From: Azoarcus olearius
GTDB lineage: Bacteria > Pseudomonadota > Gammaproteobacteria > Burkholderiales > Rhodocyclaceae
Assembly: GCF_001682385.1 (NCBI RefSeq)
Contig: NZ_CP016210.1
Location: 372,001 to 436,000 of the forward strand
DNA length: 64,000 nt
Reading direction: 5' to 3'
This document shows positions 7,780-26,552 of the stretch, one piece after another (within the stretch, counting starts at the first letter, position 1; every line of letters starts with the position of its first letter). Below the pieces are notes generated by a model that saw nothing but the letters and a program-made list of their open reading frames with translations, was not told where the DNA came from and made no database searches. The translations under genes were made by a program, and so were the position numbers.

Positions 7780-7983
7780 CTAGGCGTAGGCGAAAGCGAT
7801 CGTCACCAGCACAGTGACCAGTGGAAGCAGGGCAACGAGATCGTGGTTGTGCTCGATAGGGCGGGGCGGGGGATAACGACCCAGCGTCAGCGCGCGCAGC
7901 ATGAGCCAGCCGGCCCCGTAGAGCACGGTGTGGAACAGGAATTCCAACAAGGCCTGGGCGAGTATCAGCAGGACTTCCAACAT
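7780..7983 (-). CDS. Small two-helix membrane protein, hypothetical
   Basis: 67 residues from the ATG at 7983. Residues 1-30 (MLEVLLILAQALLEFLFHTV onward) and 48-66 (LVALLPLVTVLVTIAFAYA) are hydrophobic membrane segments separated by a short polar loop rich in Pro and Arg. I recognise no family. A longer in-frame reading exists but its extra part lacks hydrophobic character. No clear ribosome site precedes the ATG, so the start is uncertain. Confidence 0.5.
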   Translation of the reverse strand: MLEVLLILAQALLEFLFHTVLYGAGWLMLRALTLGRYPPPRPIEHNHDLVALLPLVTVLVTIAFAYA

Positions 7984-8111
7984 GCGCGGGCGGAAGGGAA
8001 AGGTGACGGCGGAGGGCAATTCTATGCAGTCGTCTTGATCCCTGCCGTGTCCAGCGTCGCGGGCCCGCAGCAGCAGCGGGTCGCCCGTCAGCACGCGTGC
8101 GCGGCGCGCCC

Positions 8112-8117
8112 TATAAT
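8112..8117 (+). promoter_or_regulatory. Candidate -10 element (TATAAT) for cytochrome gene
   Basis: A perfect TATAAT in otherwise GC-rich DNA, about 35 bases before the cytochrome c' start. No good -35 is visible at the right spacing, so the promoter would need an activator or be an extended type. Confidence 0.4.
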
Positions 8118-8152
8118 CCGCCGCCAGTCCCCGCCTTCCACCCTGTTTCCGG

Positions 8153-8608
8153 ATGCCGCCCATGCCCCGCCCGCTGCTGCCTGCCTTGTTGATCCTGCTT
8201 ACGCTTGCCGGCTGTGGTCCGGTGGAAGACACCCGCCCGGGGCAGCCGGTGAAGCAGCGCCAGGAGGCGTTCAAGTCCATCCTGCGCAGCTTCGAGCCGA
8301 TGGGCGTGATGCTGCGCGACAACAAGTATCAGGCTGACAAGTTTGCTTCGCTCGCCGGCGAACTGGTCGCCAAGCGCGATGCGCCGTGGTCGCACTTCGG
8401 GCCCGACACGAATTACCCGCCGACCAAGGCCAAGGCGGCGGTGTGGAGCGAGGGTGAAACCTTCGAGCGCGAACGGCTCGCCTTCGTGGCCGCCACTGAT
8501 GCGCTGTTCGCCGCCGCCCAGACCCGCGATCAGGCGCAGGCCAAGGCGGCGTACGAGAAGGTCTACGGCAGCTGCAAGAGCTGCCACGACCGCTTCAAGG
8601 AAAAGTAA
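8153..8608 (+). CDS. Cytochrome c' (class II c-type) lipoprotein
   Basis: 151 residues. The N-terminus is a lipoprotein signal with the lipobox LTLAGC (Cys21), so the protein is probably anchored to a membrane facing the periplasm. The heme attachment motif CKSCH lies at the extreme C-terminus (141-145), as in cytochrome c' four-helix bundles. Such proteins bind NO or CO and protect against nitrosative stress, useful for a denitrifier. The ATGs at 8153 and 8162 are both possible; the first is kept. It converges on the NAT gene with 15 bases between. Confidence 0.85.
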   Translation: MPPMPRPLLPALLILLTLAGCGPVEDTRPGQPVKQRQEAFKSILRSFEPMGVMLRDNKYQADKFASLAGELVAKRDAPWSHFGPDTNYPPTKAKAAVWSEGETFERERLAFVAATDALFAAAQTRDQAQAKAAYEKVYGSCKSCHDRFKEK

Positions 8609-8623
8609 GCGACCCGCCGGCGC

Positions 8624-9448
8624 TCAGCCGGCGTCGAACAGGCGCGCGAGCCGCGGCTGCGCTGTGGCGCAGAGCGCAGGCGGGATGCCGAACGCGCGCT
8701 GCAAAACCTCCGTCAGCTCCGCCAGGTCGGCCAGCGTGCGGCGCACGGTGCGGCCGTCGCCGTGGTATTCGGCGTAGTCGCGGTTGAACAGCGTCCAGCG
8801 CTGGTTGCGGCCGGCGCGGGCCAGCATCAGGTTGGCGGTGAAGACCGAATCCGGGTGGGTGGCGAGGAAGTAGTTGGGCGCGATGTAGTCGCAGGCGTGG
8901 TGGCGCACGCGGTCGAAGCGGTAGAGCGGCTTCCAGGCCTCGCCCAGACGGGCCTGCAGCGTCCAGTCGTCGCCATCGCGCAGCAGGCGGAAGGGTTCGT
9001 GCGGCGTGATCTGCTCGATATCCGCCTGCAGGCGCAGCGCGCTGGTCAGCGTCAGGCCGCCGAAGCCCACATCGACCAGGCGCGGGCCATCCGCGGTATC
9101 CACTTCCAGCAGCATGTGCGAGCGCGGCGTGATCGCCCCGGGCGGCTGGTTCCACACCACGCGCGCGCCGAGTTCATGCACGGTGAAGCCGAGATGGCGC
9201 AGCACGTCGGCGAAGAGCCGGTTGTGCTCGTAGCAGTAGCCGCCGCGCCCGCCCGCCACCAGCTTGGCCTGCACGGCGGCGGGGCTGATATCCACCGGCT
9301 CGCCCAGCAGCGGCGACAGGTTTTCGAAGGGAATCGCCGCCACATGCTGCGCGATCAGCGCATTGAGCGTGGTCAGCGTGGTGTCGGGCGCTGCGGCGAG
9401 GCCGCCGATGCGGGCGAGGTAGGCGTCGAGGTCGAGGGGCGGCGTCAT
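8624..9448 (-). CDS. nat: Arylamine N-acetyltransferase
   Basis: 274 residues from the ATG at 9448, which fits the usual NAT start (PLDLDAYLARIG). The catalytic triad is complete: Cys72 in RGGYCYEHN, His111 in PRSHMLLEV and Asp126 in LVDVGFGG. NATs transfer acetyl from acetyl-CoA to arylamines or hydrazines by a ping-pong mechanism through the cysteine. Length matches the bacterial family. The gene is isolated between convergent and divergent neighbours, so the physiological substrate is unknown. Confidence 0.95.
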   Translation of the reverse strand: MTPPLDLDAYLARIGGLAAAPDTTLTTLNALIAQHVAAIPFENLSPLLGEPVDISPAAVQAKLVAGGRGGYCYEHNRLFADVLRHLGFTVHELGARVVWNQPPGAITPRSHMLLEVDTADGPRLVDVGFGGLTLTSALRLQADIEQITPHEPFRLLRDGDDWTLQARLGEAWKPLYRFDRVRHHACDYIAPNYFLATHPDSVFTANLMLARAGRNQRWTLFNRDYAEYHGDGRTVRRTLADLAELTEVLQRAFGIPPALCATAQPRLARLFDAG

Positions 9449-9555
9449 CGGAGGGGTCTCCCGGGGTGGGCGTGCATGGTCGCACATCGAGGAGCTGCCG
9501 CGTATGACCACCGGATGACCGGGGTCAGGTTGCCGGCCCGTGCGCGGCGATGCAA

Positions 9556-9568
9556 TAATAAGTTATTA
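9556..9568. promoter_or_regulatory. AT-rich palindrome upstream of parA-like gene
   Basis: TAATAA-G-TTATTA, a perfect 13-base palindrome inside a short AT-rich patch 20 bases before the ATG at 9589. It may be promoter DNA or an operator, possibly for the DNA-binding partner encoded downstream. There is no direct evidence for either. Confidence 0.4.
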
Positions 9569-9588
9569 CAGTATTACCTTTAGGACGA

Positions 9589-10251
9589 ATGGGCGGCACA
9601 AGGATCGTTGCACTGCTCTCGCAGAAGGGCGGGTCGGGAAAGACCACGGTGGCGATGCAGCTTGCCGCCGGGCTGGCGCTGGCGGGCTACCGGGTGGTGG
9701 TCGCGGATCTCGATCCGCAGGAAAGCGCCTCGCGCTGGGCGGACGCCGCGGCCGCCGAGGCGCCGTTTCCCGCGCCGGTGATGCGGCTGCGCGGCAGCGC
9801 GGAGGACATGCGGCAGGCGCTGCGGGCTGCCGCCAACCGGGCGGATTTCGTCGTCTTCGACTGCCCGCCGTCGATCGACCATCCCCACACCGGCAGTGCG
9901 CTGGCGCTGTGCGACCTGGCGCTGGTGCCGGTGGTGCCCAGCCCCACCGACCTGTGGGCGACGCGCGGCATGGAAAAGCTGATCCTCAACCAGATGGCCA
10001 CCCGCACGCCGCTGCGTGCCGCGCTGCTGCCCAACCGCGTGATGCGCACCGCGCTCGCGGCCGACGTGCTCGAAGTGCTGGGCGATTTTTCCCTGCCGGT
10101 GCTCGATGCCGCGCTGACACAGCGCAGCGCCTATGCGCAAAGCGCGGTGCAGGGGGCCTCCGTCTATGAACTCGGCCGCAGCGCGCAGCCCGCGCAGGCA
10201 GAAGTCGATCGGCTCGTCGCCGCCGTTCTCAACCAATTCGAGGAGTCGTAA
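9589..10251 (+). CDS. Orphan ParA-family ATPase
   Basis: 220 residues. A deviant Walker A box KGGSGKTT (13-20), switch DLDPQES and the FDCPPS Walker B segment define a short ParA/MinD-type ATPase without the N-terminal HTH of plasmid ParA. Such proteins position DNA or protein cargo on the nucleoid through ATP-dependent dimerisation and non-specific DNA binding. The stop codon abuts the ATG of the next gene (10252), so the two are co-translated and the neighbour is the likely partner. No replication gene is near, so it is not obviously plasmid-derived. Confidence 0.9.
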   Translation: MGGTRIVALLSQKGGSGKTTVAMQLAAGLALAGYRVVVADLDPQESASRWADAAAAEAPFPAPVMRLRGSAEDMRQALRAAANRADFVVFDCPPSIDHPHTGSALALCDLALVPVVPSPTDLWATRGMEKLILNQMATRTPLRAALLPNRVMRTALAADVLEVLGDFSLPVLDAALTQRSAYAQSAVQGASVYELGRSAQPAQAEVDRLVAAVLNQFEES

Positions 10252-17135: not shown

Positions 17136-17921
17136 CTACTTCTGCAGGCGACGCCGCGTCAGCGCCAGCGCCACCCAGAACGCCACCACCGCGTAGCTGG
17201 CCAGCACCGCCAGATGCAGCCCGACGCTCTCCGGCACCCGCCCAAGCAGCAGCGGCCGCGCAATCTCCACCGCATGCGTCAGCGGCAGCGCGCGCGTCGC
17301 CGCATGCAGCAGCGGCGGCAACTGGTCTGCCGGAAAGAACACCCCGGACACCAGCATCATCGGCGTGACGAACAGGGTGAAGTAGTACATGAAGAAGTCG
17401 TAGCTCGGCGCCAGCGCGGTCATGATCAGCCCGAGCGCGGCGAACGTGAGCCCCACCAGGAAGATCAGCGGCAGCACCCACAGCGCGTAGCGCACCTCCA
17501 CCAGCCCGAACAGCGTCGTCACCAGCAGGATCGCCGCGCCCGACAGCAGCGCCTTGGACGCCGCCCACACCAGCTCGGCGAACACCACGTCGTCCAGTGC
17601 CACCGGCGCATTGAGGATCGCATCCCAGGTGCGCTGCACATGCATGCGCGAAAAGCTGGAATACAGCACCTCGAAGGTGGCGCTGTTCATCGTCGAATAG
17701 CACACCATGCCGGCCGCCAGAAAACTGATGTACGACACCCCGCCCACCTCCGGCACCAGCAGGCCGATGCCGAAGCCGAGGCCGAAGAGGTAGATCACCG
17801 GGTCGGCGAGGTTGCCCAGCACCGAGGGCAGGGCCAGCTTGCGCCAGACCAGGAAGTTGCGCTGCCAGACGGGGATGAAGCGGCGGGAGAGGGCGGGCGG
17901 GCGCCAGGGGTTGGGGGTCAT
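17136..17921 (-). CDS. NodJ-type ABC-2 exporter permease
   Basis: 261 residues from the ATG at 17921; a TTG at 17957 would add 12 residues and is less likely. Six hydrophobic segments and phrases such as NSATFEVLYSSFSRMH, WDAILNAPVALDDVV and VSGVFFPADQLPP match the NodJ branch of ABC-2 permeases. NodJ works with a NodI ATPase, normally encoded immediately upstream on the same strand. Here the matching NodI-like gene (24878-25864) lies about 7 kb away across an inserted segment. The exported substrate is unknown; outside rhizobia these pairs have poorly defined roles. Confidence 0.9.
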   Translation of the reverse strand: MTPNPWRPPALSRRFIPVWQRNFLVWRKLALPSVLGNLADPVIYLFGLGFGIGLLVPEVGGVSYISFLAAGMVCYSTMNSATFEVLYSSFSRMHVQRTWDAILNAPVALDDVVFAELVWAASKALLSGAAILLVTTLFGLVEVRYALWVLPLIFLVGLTFAALGLIMTALAPSYDFFMYYFTLFVTPMMLVSGVFFPADQLPPLLHAATRALPLTHAVEIARPLLLGRVPESVGLHLAVLASYAVVAFWVALALTRRRLQK

Positions 17922-17960
17922 GGTGGGGTTTCGGGCCGGGAGAGGAACGGTAGGCAACGG

Positions 17961-18236
17961 TCAGGGACCGATCGACTTTTTCAGTTCTTCCAGTTGTTCC
18001 AGGTCGGGGCTCGTCTGTTCGGCGTCCAGCGCAGTTCGCCCGGTCATCAGCCACAAGGTGTATTCCGGGTAGAGCAGGCAGATCTGTTCCAGGTGATCCG
18101 CGCTCGGCCTCGTCCGCCCATGCCACACGTGCGCCCAGGCCCGCGCGCTGATACCCGTTTTCTCTTCAAGCAAAGCGAATGCCCCGTGCCGCGGCAGGCG
18201 GGCATTGATGATCTTTATCAGGCGCTCAAAAACCAT
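17961..18236 (-). CDS. Small HTH regulator, phage-repressor-like
   Basis: 91 residues. A helix-turn-helix can be read in AFALLEEKTGISARAWAHVW followed by HGRTRPSADHLEQICLLYPEYTLWLM, resembling small XRE/CI-type repressors that guard phage or ICE regulatory switches. It starts at 18236 with no obvious ribosome site and faces a divergent small gene across an AT-rich region with two operator-like palindromes. It probably represses the divergent genes and itself. The family is inferred from shape and position. Confidence 0.65.
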   Translation of the reverse strand: MVFERLIKIINARLPRHGAFALLEEKTGISARAWAHVWHGRTRPSADHLEQICLLYPEYTLWLMTGRTALDAEQTSPDLEQLEELKKSIGP

Positions 18237-18251
18237 AAAGAATGATCATTT

Positions 18252-18302
18252 GAACAAATTTTGTTCATGAGAAAAAATAGCTCAAATGAACAAAAATTGT
18301 TC
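18252..18302. promoter_or_regulatory. Twin GAACAA-N3-TTGTTC operators
   Basis: GAACAAATTTTGTTC at 18252-18266 and GAACAAAAATTGTTC at 18288-18302 are palindromes with the same half-sites, starting 36 bases apart, in the AT-rich gap between the HTH regulator and the divergent small gene. Paired identical operators between divergent regulators are the classic layout of a phage-type switch. The HTH protein encoded at 17961-18236 is the obvious candidate binder. Confidence 0.7.
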
Positions 18303-18314
18303 GTTAATCCAGAT

Positions 18315-18340
18315 AGTGGTCAACAGTGGTGAATAGTGGT
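18315..18340 (+). repeat. Three AGTGGT direct repeats at 10-base period
   Basis: AGTGGT occurs at 18315-18320, 18325-18330 and 18335-18340, exactly one helical turn apart, immediately before the ATG at 18345. Helically phased short repeats suggest cooperative protein binding, or a transcript feature near the ribosome site. They are distinct from the neighbouring palindromic operators. Confidence 0.55.
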
Positions 18341-18344
18341 CGAC

Positions 18345-18548
18345 ATGTCCGAATCCATCAAGCTGGTCCAGCTCTACCCGGTTCCGATCATGCATTGGCG
18401 ATTCTTCGCGCAGCAGGTGGGCGTCGACGAAGGCGTCGTGCGGGGGCTGTGCGAGAAAGGGCATCTGCCGGTCACTCACTTTGGCCGGCATCGCTTCATC
18501 AATCTTGCCCGGCCTACCGCGGACTGCATGATTGAGGTGGCGGACTGA
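18345..18548 (+). CDS. Small winged-helix/excisionase-like protein
   Basis: 67 residues. The core HWRFFAQQVGVDEGVVRGLCEKGHLPVTHFGRHRFINL resembles the MerR/AlpA/excisionase type of short winged helix (helix-turn-helix then a GHLP-basic-Arg wing). Such proteins act as phage Cro/Xis-like regulators or directionality factors. It is divergent from the HTH repressor across two operators. The ribosome site is weak. No integrase is nearby, so regulation seems likelier than excision. Confidence 0.6.
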   Translation: MSESIKLVQLYPVPIMHWRFFAQQVGVDEGVVRGLCEKGHLPVTHFGRHRFINLARPTADCMIEVAD

Positions 18549-18621
18549 TGGGCGGGGAGGCTCGCACTCGTGACTCCGCCCATTGGGGTCAGGCGGCTCA
18601 AGCGCAGAAAGGAGGCGCCGG

Positions 18622-18978
18622 ATGAATCTCGCCCTAGCGGTAAAGATCGTGGAGCGTGTTGCCGGCATTACGGGGCATCCGCCGCATCTGGAGTGTTGGA
18701 GTCTGGATTGGTGTAGCGAAGGCAATCACTCGCTGGCGGTGCTCGCCCGCCGGCGGGCGGGGCTGCGGGGTGGGTTCGAACTCAGTTACGCGGAGCCGGA
18801 GAGCGAGGCGGAGTGGCACTACTGGTTTTGTTTGAGTGATCCGAACGCGCCTGCTATTCAGCTACCAGGTGTTGTCCGCCTCCAGTTATCAGAAGCTGTG
18901 TTGGATCTGTTGGATGTCTATGGGCGTCCGCTGCCGTTGAACGCAACTCTGCAACGTCACCTAGGGAAGGGGGCATGA
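18622..18978 (+). CDS. Hypothetical protein in phage-like module
   Basis: 118 residues. The start is well supported: AAAGGAGG ends 6 bases before the ATG. I recognise no family. The protein has a Trp/Cys-rich middle (HLECWSLDWCSEGNHS, EWHYWFCLSD) and no signal peptide or membrane helix. It follows the excisionase-like gene at 73 bases, and its stop overlaps the ATG of a 38-codon reading frame. GC content here is intermediate, nearer the chromosome than the genes downstream. Confidence 0.65.
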   Translation: MNLALAVKIVERVAGITGHPPHLECWSLDWCSEGNHSLAVLARRRAGLRGGFELSYAEPESEAEWHYWFCLSDPNAPAIQLPGVVRLQLSEAVLDLLDVYGRPLPLNATLQRHLGKGA

Positions 18979-19091
18979 TGATCGTGCAGAGGATGAGTGG
19001 GCGCCTGAATTTTCAGTCGAGCGACCAATGCTCGGCCAAAGCGGCCTGTCGAGACATGCGCCGAGAACGACTGCTTACAGGGTCAATTTGA
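18975..19091 (+). CDS. Short open frame, possibly the broken start of a lost gene
   Basis: 38 codons, overlapping the previous stop by ATGA, which suggests real translational coupling. The product (MMIVQRMSGRLN...) is too short to assign and ends just before the low-GC toxin-antitoxin region. One reading is that the left module was cut here when the next block joined, leaving only a gene start. It could equally be chance. Confidence 0.3.
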   Translation: MMIVQRMSGRLNFQSSDQCSAKAACRDMRRERLLTGSI

Positions 19092-19170: not shown

Positions 19171-19512
19171 ATGCCAGCATTCCCCGCCGTGGAAATTAGC
19201 TTCGAGACGAAGTCACTCCGTGATATGTGCGAAATCGATTCGCTCGCAATAGAGGCTATCGGCGCGCCGGCGGCGGAAGCACTGAAACGTCGCCTCTCGG
19301 ACATCCGGGCTGCGGATGCTATATATGAAGTGCTGGCAGGGCGCCCTCAGACCGTCACAGCAAACGGCGTTGAATGCCGTCAGTTTCAGCTGTCCCTCGA
19401 ACTTGTTTTGCGGGTCGTCCCTAATCACGTCGAACCGCGGCTAAAGGCAGACGGTGCTCCTGACTGGGAGCGCATTCGCCGAGTTCGCGTCATCTCTGTG
19501 GAGCATCAATGA
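19171..19512 (+). CDS. HigB-like (RelE-superfamily) toxin
   Basis: 113 residues. The pattern ISFETKSLRDMCEI, ALKRRLSDIRAADAIYEVLAGRPQ and the final strand RIRRVRVISVEHQ match RelE/HigB-type proteins annotated as killer or plasmid-maintenance toxins, ribosome-dependent mRNA interferases. The key basic residues are spread through the chain, so activity cannot be confirmed by eye. It overlaps the antitoxin-like gene by ATGA and precedes it, the toxin-first order of higBA. Confidence 0.75.
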   Translation: MPAFPAVEISFETKSLRDMCEIDSLAIEAIGAPAAEALKRRLSDIRAADAIYEVLAGRPQTVTANGVECRQFQLSLELVLRVVPNHVEPRLKADGAPDWERIRRVRVISVEHQ

Positions 19513-20597
19513 CAGCTATGACCACGTTCCAACCAATGTGGGCCAACCCTCCCGGAGCCACGATTGCCGACCTGCTTGAAGAGCGAGGTCAGCCGATTCG
19601 GGATTTTGCCAGCTCTATCGATTCGAGCATTGCAAGCCTTTCCCGGCTTCTGTTTGGTGTTGAACCTCTTACCAACGACATGGCTGAACGGCTCTCCAGC
19701 GCATTGGGGGCTTCACCTGATTTTTGGTTGAAGAGAGAGGAAATGTATCGCGCCGACTTGAAGCGGCTAGTCGAAAATACCGCGAGAAATAACACTGCTC
19801 ACTGGTTTGACAGTCTTCCACTGAAAGATATGGTGCGGTTTGGTTGGATTGCCGAGGGAGGCACGCAACAAGAGACCATTTTCAATGCATGTGCTTTCTT
19901 TGGCACGACTACGCCCGACGAATTTGAGCGCAAATATCATCGACTATTGTCAACCGCCGCTTACCGAAAAAGCGATGCATTCGAAACGAGGCCATCGGCA
20001 GTGGCTGCGTGGCTGAGACAAGGGGAGATTGCCGCCGCCGCAATTGACTGCGCCCCCTGGAGCAGCAAGATGCTAAGAGCCTCGTTGGATGATATTCGGG
20101 AACTCACGCGCGTAAAAGCTCCCGGGGACTTTCTCCCGGCACTAGAGATTATTTTGTCGAGATGTGGCGTTGCGTTGGTTGTAGCCAGAACGCCTCAAGG
20201 GTGTCGAGCAAGCGGCGCGAGTCGATTTCTTAGTGCCGATAAAGCGTCAATCCAGCTGAGTTTTCGTTATCTCGTGGATGACCAATTCTGGTTTACAGTG
20301 TTCCATGAGATAGGGCATTTGCTGCTTCACTCCCATGACGACTTGTTTCTTGAGGGTCTAGAGAATCGCAACTCTGACGCGGAACGAGAAGCCAACCAAT
20401 TTGCCGAGGAGTACTTGCTCGCCAAGGTAGGCAAAGACGCTCTTAATGTGGTTCCGCTCTCCGATTTAGGCATTGCGCGGCTTGCCCGCAAAGCTGGCAT
20501 CTCCCCCGGGATTGTAGTCGGTCAATTGCAAGAAAGAGGCCGAGTTCCGTACGAGCATTTCAACTATTTGAAGGTGCGCTATTCGTGGAGTGATTGA
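19509..20597 (+). CDS. XRE antitoxin fused to ImmA/IrrE metallopeptidase
   Basis: 362 residues. The N-terminal about 80 residues are a HigA-like XRE domain (PPGATIADLLEERGQPIRDFA through ALGASPDFWLKRE). The C-terminal half carries the zinc-peptidase motif HEIGH (266-270) with a downstream AEREANQFAEEYLL helix that supplies the third ligand, as in ImmA/IrrE (DUF955) proteins. It should neutralise the upstream toxin and autoregulate; the protease might cleave a repressor or the antitoxin itself. It is coupled to the toxin by a 4-base overlap. GC is clearly below that of the chromosome. Confidence 0.88.
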   Translation: MTAMTTFQPMWANPPGATIADLLEERGQPIRDFASSIDSSIASLSRLLFGVEPLTNDMAERLSSALGASPDFWLKREEMYRADLKRLVENTARNNTAHWFDSLPLKDMVRFGWIAEGGTQQETIFNACAFFGTTTPDEFERKYHRLLSTAAYRKSDAFETRPSAVAAWLRQGEIAAAAIDCAPWSSKMLRASLDDIRELTRVKAPGDFLPALEIILSRCGVALVVARTPQGCRASGASRFLSADKASIQLSFRYLVDDQFWFTVFHEIGHLLLHSHDDLFLEGLENRNSDAEREANQFAEEYLLAKVGKDALNVVPLSDLGIARLARKAGISPGIVVGQLQERGRVPYEHFNYLKVRYSWSD

Positions 20598-20601
20598 CTC
20601 G

Positions 20602-21537
20602 TCAGCCTTTAAAGTAGGTATATGAATTGGGGTCTTTCCCCCAATTGCAGAGTGAGTCTTCCATCTCCTGCATGCCAACGGAGAGTGCAGAGCCGACGAG
20701 GGTGGTTCTTCGTTCCAGCTCAGCAATACTCAACGTCGCGCCAGATTCAAGAAGTTTGCGGGCTCCAGAATTTGGGCCTTTGGTTGAGCCGTCGAAATAT
20801 GGCCGCCCAGGCCGAATGTTGGCGAAATGCAGCTTCTGTATCATCGTCAGGTAATCGAATCTGCCGATTCGCCCGAATGACGCTACGGACCGCATTGACC
20901 TATACAGCCATTCGAAGGCTGCCTCGGGAGAGCCGTCCGAGAAATGCAGTGCCAAATCGAAGAGATTCTGATGGCCGCCGTGCGCGTTAACCCACTGAGC
21001 ATACGTGACAAAAGCGTCGCCTGTGCCGTTGGGCTTCGACCCCGACATGCTCAAGTATTTTCTGTGATTGCCAAATCCCCGGTTGGATCCCCGCTTCAGG
21101 TGCGCTTCATTAGCATCTAGCCAAGCCCTCAGTTCATCCGGGTGACTGGATACCTGTTCAAACGTCCACGGCCCTCTTTGCCCAAGAGCACCATACACGT
21201 CGCGGGTATACCGATAACCAGACCGAGGATGACGGCCGAAGTGGACAAACAGAAAAACAAGCCAACAAGCGTCGTCAAAATGTCCCGCGCGGCGCTTCAA
21301 AATTGCTGCTCGAATTGGGTCGAACAATGAGCTCGAACCGTTTGCCCTGTCAGCGTGTATGTCGCGATTAGCGACGGCCGATACGAACTGTACTCTGCGG
21401 ATGCTGTCGATTAATTGCCTTATGTACGTGTCTCGACGTGTCGGGTTTTGAACGCCGGGTAGCGGGACGGCTCGCTCATGGCACGCCGTCAACCGAGCAT
21501 CGATTTCGTGATAAAGCTGGGAAACTTTCAACCTCAT
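20602..21537 (-). CDS. Alpha-glutamyl/putrescinyl thymine pyrophosphorylase-like (clade 3) protein
   Basis: 311 residues, all-helical in character. Conserved-looking blocks are FDDACWLVFLFVHFGRHPRSG (87-107), GFGNHRKYLS (154-163), the GGHQNLFDLAL region and SMRSVASFGRIGRFDYLTM (214-232). I recognise these from proteins annotated as alpha-glutamyl/putrescinyl thymine pyrophosphorylase clade 3, a group related to helical (HhH-type) DNA glycosylases and linked to thymine hypermodification. Biochemical activity of this clade is not established. It overlaps the upstream gene by ATGA and is last in the minus-strand cassette, converging 4 bases from the TA operon. Confidence 0.65.
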   Translation of the reverse strand: MRLKVSQLYHEIDARLTACHERAVPLPGVQNPTRRDTYIRQLIDSIRRVQFVSAVANRDIHADRANGSSSLFDPIRAAILKRRAGHFDDACWLVFLFVHFGRHPRSGYRYTRDVYGALGQRGPWTFEQVSSHPDELRAWLDANEAHLKRGSNRGFGNHRKYLSMSGSKPNGTGDAFVTYAQWVNAHGGHQNLFDLALHFSDGSPEAAFEWLYRSMRSVASFGRIGRFDYLTMIQKLHFANIRPGRPYFDGSTKGPNSGARKLLESGATLSIAELERRTTLVGSALSVGMQEMEDSLCNWGKDPNSYTYFKG

Positions 21538-22346
21538 GCAAGGGCCTCCGCGGTCTTTTCAGCAATCCAGTTGGCGATAGATGCAGTAACTTTTGATGTT
21601 ACGCCGAAGGTGCTTTGAATATTGTGGTTGTACCCTAGAACAACCAGTTCTCTGTCCAACTTCATCCCGCTTAACTCGGACAGCCTCCCGAAATATGAAA
21701 TCCCAGCCACCTTTCCTCCCTGCAAAGACCACTCGGGAACAATTGCGGAACTTATCGAGCTATCGATGCTAAGGCGGTTGAATTCGCGAATCACGGCGCT
21801 CCCGTTCAACACGAGAACCCGGATGTCAGAGGCTCGAATGGTGCGTACCAGCGCCGGCGTCCCCGCGTTCACGAGTGCAGCGCGTTGAGATGATGTCAGT
21901 GCGGACCATTTGCGCTCGGTGGCAAAGGGCGAGAGGTCAAGGTGACATGCTGAGTCAGCGAGCTTGGAATAATATGAGGCGCTTGTGTCCACCAGTAGGC
22001 GTTCCAACCTATTGAACCATCGTCCATACGGATTACGGTCAAAGTAGTTTTCACACGCCTTCCATATCCGCTCTATGTCGGAATCGCCGACAGCTCCCCA
22101 GTTGACCGCTTGCAAGGTGTAGAGCGTTTCGAAGCGGTTGAGCGGCGGATTAAGTGGCACACCCCCTCGCCCTTGAAATTCAAGATTGCTTGGATTCAGG
22201 CCAAGCGTCGCCAGCTTTGCGTTGACAGGGCTTCCAAATGAAATAACGGGTGAAGCCCAAGGGATAACTCCGGCCTCATCTAGGCAGCCGCTTCGCAATA
22301 TGTCGACGAGAGAGCCGATTTCGTCTAATAGCCTTCTTTCGCCCAA
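21534..22346 (-). CDS. UDG-superfamily-like protein of base-modification cassette
   Basis: 270 residues from a TTG at 22346, with GAGGG 6 bases upstream and 11 bases after the previous stop. The arrangement resembles uracil-DNA glycosylases: LGLNPSNLEF (48-57, motif I-like), CHLDLSPFAT (134-143), RVLVLNG strand (176-182) and LGYNHNIQST (237-246, motif II-like). The usual catalytic Asp or His of classical UDGs is not obvious, so it may be a divergent nucleic-acid or nucleotide glycosidase. Middle gene of a three-gene coupled set. Confidence 0.55.
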   Translation of the reverse strand: MGERRLLDEIGSLVDILRSGCLDEAGVIPWASPVISFGSPVNAKLATLGLNPSNLEFQGRGGVPLNPPLNRFETLYTLQAVNWGAVGDSDIERIWKACENYFDRNPYGRWFNRLERLLVDTSASYYSKLADSACHLDLSPFATERKWSALTSSQRAALVNAGTPALVRTIRASDIRVLVLNGSAVIREFNRLSIDSSISSAIVPEWSLQGGKVAGISYFGRLSELSGMKLDRELVVLGYNHNIQSTFGVTSKVTASIANWIAEKTAEALA

Positions 22347-22357
22347 GATGCCCTCGA

Positions 22358-23329
22358 CTATGCGCCTGCGGGTACTGCAACTACGCTATCGAGCTTGGCC
22401 TGTACGAACATTTTGTATACGCCTGAGTTGATTCGTTTCATCACCTCGGCGATGGATGCGGAGTCTGACTCTCGCCCAGCACGCAGCACAACGAGCAGGT
22501 ATGCCAAATCCTGCCAATATGGGTCTAAGTGACATTGGTCGAAGTCAATTGCGTCACCACCACGCAGGGATGATTCAATAGCCTGAAGCTCGCCAATCGC
22601 TGGCCAAGGGTCACCTTCTGGCATTTCTGGCATTGCGATTGTTGAATGCCATCCTTCGCTTAAATACCTCTGCGCTGCTGGTCTGTTGGTGTCGTATAGG
22701 TGCAAGCTTCCGGCAATGTGCTTATATTCCCCCAGCTCAAGCTCCAAACTTCGGGCCAGAATTTCTTGCAGTAATGTAAATGCAAATACATCATGGGGCA
22801 ACCCAATGTACGCGTCGTTTGATCGCATGCTGACTACAAGATGGAGACGTCCATCGCGAACAAGAAACTGCAATGTACATGTACAGGGAATCGACGGATA
22901 GTGTTCGGCCAAGTCGGCCGCATCGAAAAGCTGAATAACTCCTCTTCGGGAGCCTGGATGAGCTTTGAGCAGCGCCTGTACGTTGGCGACTTGATTCAGG
23001 CCCCGGAAAGAAAAGAGACGGTCGCCATAGCCGCTTCGAACTCTGACCTGGTCTTCAGATTCTTCTTGAAATCTATTGGGAACGTAGTAGTCGATAAAGT
23101 CCAGCTTGGTATCGCCGGACATGTACCAAAGAAACTCTCCCAAAGCGCTGAATATTTTCCCCTTGCCTTCGCTTCGACTCAGCCGGGCCCTTGGATTGGT
23201 CAAATGCAAGCAGCAGCCGATGAGTTCGGAGAATTCCCCGCGGGTTGCCGTAATCGACGGATGAGCTTTGAGCAACTCATTCAGTACATCATTCAATAAA
23301 TCATCCAGAGTGCTGCGTGCAATGTACAT
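22358..23329 (-). CDS. Thymidylate-synthase-like nucleotide C5-modifying enzyme
   Basis: 323 residues. Aligned with E. coli ThyA, the core is clear: catalytic Cys149 (PCTCTLQF), RS at 169-170, Asp172, GLPHD at 176-180, and HLY with His210 and Tyr212. Two changes stand out: Thr150 replaces the His after the catalytic Cys, and Asp180 replaces the base-reading Asn177. In T4 dCMP hydroxymethylase the same Asn-to-Asp change gives cytosine specificity. N- and C-termini differ from ThyA, and a helical tail replaces the usual end. It probably methylates or hydroxymethylates a pyrimidine nucleotide, perhaps dCMP, rather than serving as housekeeping ThyA. Confidence 0.8.
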   Translation of the reverse strand: MYIARSTLDDLLNDVLNELLKAHPSITATRGEFSELIGCCLHLTNPRARLSRSEGKGKIFSALGEFLWYMSGDTKLDFIDYYVPNRFQEESEDQVRVRSGYGDRLFSFRGLNQVANVQALLKAHPGSRRGVIQLFDAADLAEHYPSIPCTCTLQFLVRDGRLHLVVSMRSNDAYIGLPHDVFAFTLLQEILARSLELELGEYKHIAGSLHLYDTNRPAAQRYLSEGWHSTIAMPEMPEGDPWPAIGELQAIESSLRGGDAIDFDQCHLDPYWQDLAYLLVVLRAGRESDSASIAEVMKRINSGVYKMFVQAKLDSVVAVPAGA

Positions 23330-23387
23330 TTTTTCTCGCTAGCAGGTCGATGATTGGGGGCGTGAGGTGATGGCCGAAAAGACGTCG

Positions 23388-23672
23388 TTAGGCAAATAGC
23401 TCTTGCTGTATCGGAGCGTGTATTGAAATTTCCATCGCCCTTACGACGCGAATTGCGTAACGCGGAGATATGCTTTGCGCGCCGTGGTGTATCGCTCTTT
23501 CCCTCTGTGAGGTACTTATGTCGTAGTGAGGGTGGCGTGCTTGGCGATGGAAGGCGTGCGGATGAATGCCAATTTCTGCAGCAAACTTATGGAGTTCCTC
23601 AAGGCTGTCTGCAACGAGGTGACACCAATGGCGACCATGCTTGGATACCATTGCATCGTCGACGTAAACCAC
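23388..23672 (-). CDS. DUF4031 protein
   Basis: 94 residues from GTG at 23672, with GGGGGA just upstream. VYVDDAMVSKHGRHWCHLVADSLEELHKFAAEIGI, then HYDISTSQRERAIHHGAQ, is the DUF4031 pattern, a small family frequent in phages and actinobacteria with unknown function. It lies 58 bases upstream of the thymidylate-synthase-like gene on the same strand and is probably first in that operon. Confidence 0.8.
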   Translation of the reverse strand: MVYVDDAMVSKHGRHWCHLVADSLEELHKFAAEIGIHPHAFHRQARHPHYDISTSQRERAIHHGAQSISPRYAIRVVRAMEISIHAPIQQELFA

Positions 23673-23987
23673 TATTCCCCCTTATTTTCGCTGATATGCA
23701 ATCCATTTTCTATTCGATACATCTTATCAGGGTTGTGCTATTGACGTTCCGTCGATTATGGGTTGCAGTCAACTCTTTCGAGTCTTGACATCCTGGCGCT
23801 AAGCCTGAACTAGCGTCTTGGCCTCTCCTGTAACAACCGAGAAACCCGCTTCAAACCGCCTCTTAACAGCCGTTTGTGAGATTCTGCCTCGCTGGCCGCT
23901 TTGGCCGTCGAACAGACGCTCTGGCAGTCATCGACACAGACCGTGTGTCGTAGGCCCTAGCGGACCAAATAGCCCCAACAAAACAAC
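23673..23987. other. Gene-free stretch between DUF4031 and NERD genes
   Basis: No convincing gene on either strand; a 72-codon plus-strand frame at 23818 has no ribosome site or family features. The part next to the DUF4031 start (23673-23780) is AT-rich and should hold the promoter of the minus-strand cassette. The rest shows nothing I can name. Confidence 0.5.
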
Positions 23988-24743
23988 TCAACCCCACCGC
24001 ATAAACCGACACGCCGGAAAAGTCGAGCATCCATAAAACTGCCTACCCGCCTTCTCCCCCGATTTCACCGTCCGCAACACCAGCGGACTCGAACACTTCG
24101 GGCAGGTATCGGTACTGGAATGCCGTGCTTTCAGGGATTCCACATGCGCGGTCCGCGTCGCCCAGGTGCGCGGCAGGTGACCGGTCTGGATCGCGGTGAT
24201 GAGGGCGCCGACCTCTTCGTCAGAGAACAGCACGTGCTGCTTGCTCTTGATGTAGCTCGCGTAGCCGTGGGTCAGGACGTTGGGCGGCAGCGGGTTCTTA
24301 AGGGTGGCGTCGCCCCAGAACATCACCACCGAATGAAAATGGCTGTCATCCAGCTTGAGGAATTCGGCCAGGGCGCGAACGTGGCGGTAGTTCTGATGCA
24401 GGGGGTTCTGGAAGCGGTACTTCCGGCCGTACAGGTTCTGAGTCCAGGTGGCGCCCTTCTCGCTGCCGTAGATCCAGCCCTTCATGTTCTTCGTTTCGAC
24501 GACGAAGATGCCGTAACGCGAAACCACTACATGGTCGATCTGGGTGGTGCCGTTGGCTGTGGGCAGGGTGATGTCGTTGATGGCGGTGTAGATCGCCTTG
24601 TCGAGCAAGAGCTCTTGCGCCAGGGCGCTCTGGGCCTCGCCGAACCAGCCTTTCACCAGCGGGCTGCGCAGTAGCGCGGCGACTACAGCCAGCAAGAACA
24701 GCAGCAACATGCCGTTGTAGGCGGCGCCTAGGATTTCCGTCAT
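23988..24743 (-). CDS. NERD-domain nuclease-like protein with topoisomerase-type zinc ribbon
   Basis: 251 residues. An N-terminal membrane helix (about 10-26) is followed by a NERD domain: GEAQSALAQELL, then QIDHVVVSRYGIFVVETKN, whose Asp70, Glu83 and Lys85 form a restriction-endonuclease-like D-ExK core. The C-terminus has four cysteines (CPKC and, about 24 residues on, YGCSTFPAC), as in the C4 ribbon of topoisomerase I. The membrane-anchored nuclease layout fits DNA processing or defence. Its GC content is higher than that of the TA and base-modification genes, so it may have a separate origin. Confidence 0.88.
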   Translation of the reverse strand: MTEILGAAYNGMLLLFLLAVVAALLRSPLVKGWFGEAQSALAQELLLDKAIYTAINDITLPTANGTTQIDHVVVSRYGIFVVETKNMKGWIYGSEKGATWTQNLYGRKYRFQNPLHQNYRHVRALAEFLKLDDSHFHSVVMFWGDATLKNPLPPNVLTHGYASYIKSKQHVLFSDEEVGALITAIQTGHLPRTWATRTAHVESLKARHSSTDTCPKCSSPLVLRTVKSGEKAGRQFYGCSTFPACRFMRWG

Positions 24744-24877: not shown

Positions 24878-25864
<987 letters not shown>

Positions 25865-25934
25865 CGCGCGCTGCTCCGGGCGCGGCCGGGGATGCGCGGT
25901 GCCATCTCCGCGGCGGGACGGGCCGGCGCCTTCA

Positions 25935-26552
25935 TCAGCCCGCGGGCGGCACCGTGGCGGCAAAGCTGGGGCGGGCGAACATGCGCTGCGCGAACGCTTC
26001 CAGCACCGGGCGGCCGGCGCGCCACTCGAGATAGCCAAGGCGCAGGTCGAGGTAGCCCAGCGCAACGCCGAGCGCGATGTCGCCGAGCTGCATGCTGTCG
26101 CCGTCCAGCCAGTTGCGGCCGGCAAGGCGCTCTTCCAGAAGGTCCAGGCTGCGCTGGATCTTGTCGTACTGGCGGTCGAGATTGGGCGCGCTTTGCTGCG
26201 CCTCCGGGCGGCGGCCTTCCAGATAGGCGGTGACGGCGGCGTCCAGGATGCCATCGACCAGCGCCTCGCTCTGGCGCACGCGCACGCGCTCGATGCCGCC
26301 GGCCGGCAGCAGCGCGGGGGCGTGGCCCAGGGTTTCGATGTAGCCGGCGATCACCGGGGAGTCGAAGAACACTTCGCCGTCGTCCAGCACCAGCGCGGGC
26401 ACCTTGCCCAGCGGATTGACGTCCGGCACGCGGGTGGCGGCTTCCCACGGGGAATCGACGACCAGCTCGAACGGGATGTTCTTTTCCGCCAGCGCGATGC
26501 GGATCTTGCGGGCGTAGGGGCTGGTGAGCGAGGCGAGCAGTTTCATGGTCAT
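25935..26552 (-). CDS. Glutathione S-transferase family protein
   Basis: 205 residues. A thioredoxin-fold N-terminal domain ([44 protein letters not shown], with the cis-Pro and SNAIL-like DSP site) and an all-helical C-terminal domain are present. The active-site position is a Ser in TSPYARK. It is probably cytoplasmic, conjugating glutathione or reducing peroxides. It is part of a minus-strand run with the hydrolase and ferredoxin genes (24 bases from the hydrolase start). Start at 26552 or the Met two codons on. Confidence 0.93.

Follow-up and report, generated by a model that had tools for sequence, protein, structure and literature searches.

A predicted 5-hydroxymethylcytosine-based gene module of Azoarcus olearius, possibly a mobile anti-phage system with a toxin-antitoxin-like guard

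Gene content of the locus

We analyzed a group of genes in a 64,000-nucleotide stretch of the Azoarcus olearius genome (RefSeq contig NZ_CP016210.1, positions 372,001 to 436,000; hereafter, the window), which may form an anti-phage module built on 5-hydroxymethylcytosine (5hmC). A sequence-only reading of the window had described a four-gene cassette, coding for DUF4031, thymidylate synthase (TS)-like, uracil-DNA glycosylase (UDG)-like and aGPT-Pplase-like proteins. Its description of four open reading frames (ORFs) on one strand, with gaps of 58 and 11 bases and a 4-base overlap, is exact; the low-GC island is also evident, with a GC content of 0.51-0.54 between 19 and 24 kb, compared with about 0.67-0.73 in the surrounding DNA; and Pfam supports its family calls (DUF4031, PF13223, E=1e-25; TS, PF00303, E=3e-24; aGPT-Pplase3, PF18746, E=3e-84). 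The genes are grouped as it placed them, but the unit has six genes and not four. It runs on to 19171, where a convergent pair (19171-20597), coding for a HigB-like protein and a helix-turn-helix (HTH) protein fused to an M78 metallopeptidase (HTH-M78), completes the four-gene set:

19171..19512, plus strand: HigB-like small protein of 113 aa, first gene of the convergent pair
19509..20597, plus strand: HigA-type HTH and M78/IrrE metallopeptidase fusion of 362 aa (PF06114, PADLOC, HigA structures)
20602..21537, minus strand: aGPT-Pplase clade 3/ADDT-like protein of 311 aa (PF18746, PF18724, fold)
21534..22346, minus strand: UDG-superfamily protein of 270 aa with a Brig3-type pocket (AlphaFold2 fold, motif residues)
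22358..23329, minus strand: TS-superfamily protein of 323 aa, a predicted deoxycytidylate (dCMP) hydroxymethylase (likeness to MilA, specificity residues)
23388..23672, minus strand: DUF4031 protein of 94 aa, an optional accessory (PF13223, E=1e-25)

The HigB-like and HTH-M78 genes overlap by 4 bases, and the aGPT and peptidase genes lie tail to tail. The literature searched yielded no published description of this gene set, although parts of it may appear in Iyer et al. 2013 and Burroughs et al. 2015.

Conservation of the unit

From the 203 relatives that a GTDB scan based on the aGPT protein found, we retained the top 80; plasmids gave eight records with homologues, of which seven were examined. 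The survey of loci, chosen in this way via aGPT, thus comprises 87 loci, or 88 with the window. All four core genes, i.e., those of aGPT, TS, HTH-M78 and the HigB-like protein, are present at 81 of the 87 loci (82/88 with the window). Individually, TS was found in 84, HTH-M78 in 85, the HigB-like protein in 83 (76/80 GTDB loci and 7/7 plasmid loci), UDG in 36 and DUF4031 in 14; with the window included, the last two rise to 37/88 and 15/88. The usual core is therefore TS, aGPT, HTH-M78 and the HigB-like protein, while UDG and DUF4031 are optional. At the plasmid loci the order is TS, UDG-like (in one), aGPT and then a convergent HTH and M78 (ImmA/IrrE) gene, with a small HigB-like gene upstream of the HTH-M78 gene in all seven. 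At 84 of the 87 loci, the aGPT gene is on the strand opposite to that of the peptidase gene (in L042 they share a strand), and the gap between them has a median of -4 bp over 85 convergent pairs, the window included.

Three of the six loci that lack the full core (L018, L056 and L070) end at contig edges. Among the others, L077 has no TS and only a short UDG ORF, L090 has aGPT alone, and L052, from a Microbacteriaceae genome, carries TS and aGPT in a single 635-aa ORF (7957-9864), which could be a missed stop instead of a true fusion. On a Leptospira plasmid, aGPT is split into two ORFs (L004:7980-8913), and this copy may be inactive.

Pairwise distances among the five proteins are correlated in all ten comparisons (0.59-0.80, with a null maximum of 0.30), and shared host descent contributes to these values. 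The survey of the 87 loci shows that the linkage is conserved among homologues and that the grouping is not due to chance.

The GTDB loci cover nine phyla. On the aGPT tree, phylum changes 16 times, against a minimum possible of eight, and UDG presence changes 13 times, which suggests that the module has passed between phyla and that UDG has been lost or gained repeatedly; the trees were made with FastTree only, and 36 of 83 inner branches are weak. Occurrence is sporadic, with the module in 3/185 genomes of the class and 2/101 of the family.

The TS-superfamily protein

The nearest solved relative of the TS-like protein is the CMP hydroxymethylase MilA (E=1e-70), the best thymidylate synthase following at E=2e-28. 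The residues singled out by the sequence-only reading are conserved: the catalytic Cys149 and Arg169 each occur in 86 of 86 aligned homologues, Thr150, after the catalytic Cys, also in 86/86, and Asp180, in the column of the base-reading Asn, in 85/86. At the deoxy-selecting positions, Ser170 is present in 86/86 and Arg128 in 82 of the 84 homologues with a residue there. According to PMC5175136, the Asp marks cytosine substrates, while Ser and Arg mark deoxy substrates. Since Asp180, Ser170 and Arg128 keep these published deoxycytidylate-selecting positions, the enzyme is predicted to be a dCMP hydroxymethylase that makes 5-hydroxymethyl-dCMP, in agreement with the earlier assignment; possibly, it is a methylase instead. 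Like MilA and T4 dCMP hydroxymethylase, it belongs to the TS superfamily and has the catalytic Cys and the cytosine-selecting Asp (PMC5175136). It shares Cys-Thr with MilA, but its Ser and Arg at the two sugar positions are those of the dCMP enzyme and not of MilA, and it is further set apart by its bacterial, immune-like setting.

Phage thymine-hypermodification sets, such as those of M6, PhiW-14 and SP10, combine a hydroxymethylating TS with an aGPT-Pplase or ADDT enzyme. The present unit likewise joins a predicted hydroxymethylating TS to an aGPT/ADDT-fold enzyme; however, those sets act on dUMP and thymine with the help of DNA kinases, whereas this one is bacterial, is predicted to act on dCMP, has no kinase and carries a toxin-antitoxin (TA)-like pair. 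The TS of phage M6, which we take to be of the 5-hydroxymethyldeoxyuridine (5hmdU) type, has Asn in the Asp180 column. Thymine, which the sequence-only reading had considered as the modified base, gives way to a predicted cytosine-derived base, as judged from the TS residues. Thymine hypermodification was rejected for the TS on account of its dCMP-type specificity residues. For the same residues, and because none of the six genes codes for a kinase, the unit does not qualify as a thymine-hypermodification cassette.

In a collection of 50,697 phage records, TS matches occurred in 2549, none of which spans 80% of the protein; the two phage TS-match regions that we examined carry no aGPT or UDG annotation.

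The UDG-superfamily protein

The 270-aa protein has no Pfam match at E<=0.5, and its profile found no credible match among PDB sequences. Nevertheless, its AlphaFold2 model, with a predicted local distance difference test (pLDDT) score of 95, has the uracil-DNA glycosylase fold that the sequence-only reading had proposed. In Foldseek, family-4 UDG was the best match (E=6e-5), followed by TDG and UdgX.

Brig3 excises 5hmC from phage DNA, and a 2026 preprint (PMC13160076) names its 5hmC-caging and catalytic residues. The window protein belongs to the same superfamily and has counterparts of nine of the ten residues that the preprint assigns to the pocket: N50, P51, S52, E55, Y97, W100, F101, H125 and D127 of Brig3 match N51, P52, S53, E56, Y107, W110, F111, H135 and D137, respectively, while the tenth, F31, was not placed. 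At each of these nine positions, 36 or 37 of the 37 homologues have the same residue. The Brig3 spacing is retained within the NPSxxE, YxxWF and HxD motifs and between YxxWF and HxD, while the interval from NPSxxE to YxxWF is nine residues longer in the window protein. The exact YxxWF-HxD spacing pattern occurs in 7 of the 37 homologues, so this spacing varies. Based on the pocket and the fold, the protein is predicted to excise 5hmC as Brig3 does. The partners differ: that of Brig3 is the deglucosylase BapA, whereas here they are a dCMP-hydroxymethylase-like TS, aGPT3 and the TA-like pair.

Such a pocket would also fit a defence directed at phages that already carry 5hmC or hypermodified bases, in which the glycosylase would excise 5hmC, aGPT would remove a bulkier derivative and the TS, running in reverse, would drain 5-hydroxymethyl-dCMP. 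Brig1 and Brig3 protect against T-even phages (PMC11078745, PMC13160076). However, the majority of the loci have TS and aGPT but no glycosylase. Moreover, a reverse TS activity is, to our knowledge, not known for this subfamily. We regard this explanation as improbable.

Outside the module, the UDG family is rare in the collections searched, with one of 398 genomes (the window's own) and one plasmid, of the Leptospira set. It also occurs in six viral contigs, four of which have the module. Two free-standing homologues keep the motifs and have Arg at the place of Brig3 R53. One of the two (L201:5947-7245), which has a C-terminal extension and no accompanying TS, is located on a prophage-like contig, between genes for terminase and portal proteins. 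The 50,697 phage records contained no UDG relatives by tblastn at E<=0.001.

The aGPT/ADDT-like protein

In addition to aGPT-Pplase3, the 311-aa protein matches the ADDT family (PF18724, E=7e-60). Among viral folds, its AlphaFold2 model (pLDDT 95) is best matched by a phage amino acid:DNA transferase (E=4e-4, TM-scores 0.51/0.54), and no other match reaches E<=0.001. Weaker viral matches are a 5-hmdU-kinase helical domain (E=0.013), an aGPT clade 1 protein (E=0.11) and an EndoIII-like protein (E=0.36). Against the PDB, Foldseek gave nothing below E=1, with OGG1-type glycosylases recurring, and the aGPT profile found no credible match among PDB sequences. The glycosylase-type fold expected by the sequence-only reading was therefore recovered, near the phage amino acid:DNA transferases and, weakly, the helix-hairpin-helix glycosylases, so that both the 270- and the 311-residue proteins have glycosylase-like folds. 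Given these matches (ADDT, 5-hmdU-kinase helical domain, EndoIII-like and OGG1-type), the model points to a protein that is probably a DNA base-flipping enzyme.

An alignment-based search of viral contigs with aGPT found 25 loci, all 25 with TS and 24 with the peptidase. With one aGPT sequence as the query, the viral scan gave no matches, the 50,697 phage records held no aGPT relatives by tblastn at E<=0.001, and the aGPT profile had no match among the ORFs in 49 kb of phage M6. The module is present twice in one 118-kb viral contig (L101 and L102), possibly as part of a terminal repeat, and lies with phage structural genes on a Pantoea plasmid (L007).

In the DefensePredictor study (2026, PMC13092281), aGPT-Pplase is listed as a predicted, unvalidated defence domain. 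UDG and HTH are among the labels of its aGPT-Pplase figure. A tested defensive unit of that study has a thymidylate synthase, with a dNMP kinase and a 5hmdU kinase among its labels. The aGPT-Pplase system is thus a predicted defensive candidate, possibly the same as the present gene set.

The HigB-like and HTH-M78 pair

HTH-M78 matches PF06114 (E=2e-8), HigA structures (E=5e-11) and, over residues 24-352, PADLOC PD-Lambda-2_B (E=5e-28); His266, Glu267 and His270 of the M78 HExxH motif are each present in 85 of 86 homologues. The HigB-like protein, with a weak match to a HigB-type 'killer' protein in the PDB (E=0.74) and none in PADLOC, is by position a candidate analogue of PD-lambda-2 A. In PD-lambda-2, an abortive defence system, component B is toxic by itself and is countered by A, while defence also requires C (PMC9519451, 2022). 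That system has a HigB-like gene followed by a HigA-HTH and peptidase gene, an arrangement that the present pair resembles; here, by comparison, component C was not found among the seven island proteins scanned with PADLOC (the genes at 17961-18978 were left out), and a convergent TS/UDG/aGPT operon is present instead. HTH domains fused to Zn proteases beside RelE or PIN toxins, the protease family being linked to DNA damage, were described in 2009 (PMC2701414). Those Xre-COG2856 systems resemble the present pair in having an HTH and M78-type protease beside a RelE-type gene, and differ in lacking the TS/UDG/aGPT partner; the word 'thymidylate' is absent from that source.

A search of 398 genomes of the phylum for the peptidase matched 33. 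At all 17 examined loci above 250 bits, the window included, there is a match to the HigB-like profile, weak or fragmentary in L124, L131 and L132. The aGPT gene stands beside the peptidase at only 3 of these 17 loci, and at 24 of 35 peptidase loci in viral contigs. Because the pair recurs in peptidase loci without aGPT, it is a portable module. In L153 and L154, where TS is missing, its neighbours are genes for type I methyltransferase, specificity or restriction subunits, and in L156, also without TS, between a type I methyltransferase and GajA/GajB (Gabija) genes; the other peptidase loci examined have mixed neighbours. In the type I restriction-modification (R-M) sets, the pair could, by analogy, be a back-up killer of the R-M system, for which PrrC offers a comparison.

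These neighbours bear on another explanation, in which the unit works like an R-M system. The TS product would enter host DNA, the aGPT/ADDT-like protein would decorate 5hmC, e.g., with an amino acid, the glycosylase would remove undecorated bases, and the HTH-M78/HigB pair would act as an addiction element or back-up killer, like toxins embedded in R-M systems. In line with this, aGPT matches the ADDT and aGPT families, which are named for hypermodifying hydroxymethylated bases, TS accompanies aGPT at 84 of 87 loci and UDG at 36 of 87, and the guard pair is found in type I R-M gene sets. An R-M system has matching modification and restriction, and here the maker and the remover of 5hmC are both predictions. 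The module contains no activating DNA kinase, other decorating enzyme or site-specific component, and a nucleotide kinase for 5-hydroxymethyl-dCMP, also needed here, is missing. We consider this explanation doubtful, but one to be taken seriously.

Genomic site and mobility

ABC ATPase and permease genes flank the island (the junction being at window positions 17136-18978 and 24878-26254). They are adjacent in 6 of 9 relatives' loci; the other three are the same-genus genomes (L173, L174 and L175), all of which have CRISPR-Cas I-C genes and arrays near the same permease. Among eight proteins scanned with PADLOC, Cas3 was identified in all three sister genomes, and Cas1, Cas4, Cas7, Cas8c and Cas5c each in at least one; the repeat arrays have 51, 42 and 35 copies. 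HTH91 and xis70 are kept in L173 and L174, and u131 in L173. The ABC ATPase was reached on the far side of CRISPR-Cas in L174, one of the three. The ABC ATPase/permease junction is thus a hot spot, with CRISPR-Cas I-C in the sister genomes and the TS module in the window.

Near the left flank, a 70-aa gene with a weak, excisionase-like HTH_17 match (18336-18548) and a 131-aa gene (18583-18978) are 91% and 94% identical, respectively, in a sister genome with different cargo. A NERD-domain protein with a topoisomerase-type zinc ribbon (23988-24743) lies between the module and the ABC ATPase; it had no match in the nine relatives' permease loci (a few kb each). The six genes are also flanked by a 14-bp perfect inverted repeat:

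19033..19046, plus strand: left arm of the repeat
23894..23907, minus strand: right arm of the repeat

These two arms are the only copies of the 14-mer in the 4.45-Mb genome, and a reversed control pattern has three; the copy number is therefore ordinary, while the occurrence of both copies within 4.9 kb is not. The repeat is a candidate element end or operator, or a product of chance. An operator shared by both transcription units was rejected as a general feature, with no overall signal over 82 loci; exact matches of at least 11 bases occurred only in L034, L039 and the window.

The flank sample comprises 139 of 282 candidate genes, one row, a TS fragment of L017, having been dropped before the scan. 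Phage integrases account for 7 of the 139. The enrichment in defence genes, which the sequence-only reading had named as a check, is weak: about 12/139 flanking genes against about 6/119 control genes.

The integrases, the plasmid locations and this weak enrichment would suit a role outside immunity, in which the cassette is selfish or metabolic, for example a mobile element that is stabilised by a TA pair and carries a modified-nucleoside pathway. The model would be a mildiomycin-like pathway (MilA, then a glycosidase), MilA being the nearest solved TS relative. Nevertheless, the deoxy-selecting residues are not those of MilA, DNA is the known substrate of proteins with the UDG and aGPT/ADDT folds, the site is shared with CRISPR-Cas and the unit has no further biosynthetic genes. 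A role of this kind appears quite unlikely.

Proposed mechanism

Because a predicted 5-hydroxymethyl-dCMP synthase, a predicted 5hmC-excising glycosylase (where kept) and an ADDT-like enzyme face a PD-lambda-2-like pair at a CRISPR site, we propose that the unit may be an anti-phage module that spreads horizontally, uses 5hmC and has a TA-like guard. We give this proposal about an even chance. Judging from its specificity residues, the TS-like enzyme would convert dCMP to 5-hydroxymethyl-dCMP. The modified nucleotide would then enter new DNA, most harmfully that of the phage, which may be synthesized while dCMP released from degraded host DNA is plentiful. Where encoded, the Brig3-like glycosylase is predicted, from its pocket and fold, to excise 5hmC, and the aGPT/ADDT-like protein would flip and process the same hydroxymethylated base, so that 5hmC-bearing DNA would be broken at abasic sites or changed. 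Finally, the ties to PD-lambda-2 and of M78 proteins to DNA damage suggest that the HTH-M78/HigB-like guard would impose cell arrest when damage spreads or something disturbs the module. We infer the order of events, the entry of the nucleotide into DNA, the guard trigger, the phage-stopping step and the role of aGPT. The sequence-only reading had offered making a modified base and excising modified bases as alternatives; both may hold for the same module, as predictions from sequence and models.

In a more specific form, rather unlikely in our view, the module would be a booby trap that writes its own target into the invader genome. As the phage shreds host DNA, dCMP would rise, the TS would make 5-hydroxymethyl-dCMP and phage replication would incorporate it; the base-flipping enzymes would then cut the poisoned bases, and the HTH-M78/HigB pair would kill the cell if its own DNA is hit.

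Several observations weigh against the proposed 5hmC-based module. Its main weaknesses are the missing 5-hydroxymethyl-dCMP kinase and the weak enrichment in defence genes. Neither a nucleotide kinase for 5-hydroxymethyl-dCMP nor a 5hmdU-type DNA kinase is present among the six genes or among the 25 of 93 Pfam families considered for the 139 flanking genes. At E<=1e-15, PADLOC matched about 12 of those 139 genes (first 25 of 73 families), compared with about 6 of the 119 genes in 15 arbitrarily chosen regions, which were not taxon-matched. UDG is absent from 51 of 88 loci; therefore, excision by the glycosylase is not the sole effector unless aGPT also excises. The match to Brig3 concerns the residues named in PMC13160076 and not a full sequence alignment; in the window protein, Asn54 replaces Brig3 R53, and equivalents of F31, R197 and N225 were not placed. 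Most fold matches of aGPT are weak. A shared operator upstream of both units reached p<0.05 at 6/82 loci in the same orientation and at 1/82 in the opposite one.

Implications

The base-excision immunity of Brig1-3 targets bases that the phage makes. Here, by contrast, one operon holds a predicted maker of a base and, in many loci, also a predicted remover of that base, and the TA-like guard of this module, found across nine phyla, also occurs in R-M gene sets. If the module is active, bacteria would have a 5hmC chemistry of their own, a possible source of cytosine-modifying enzymes, and the module would allow the function of prokaryotic aGPT/ADDT-like proteins to be tested directly.

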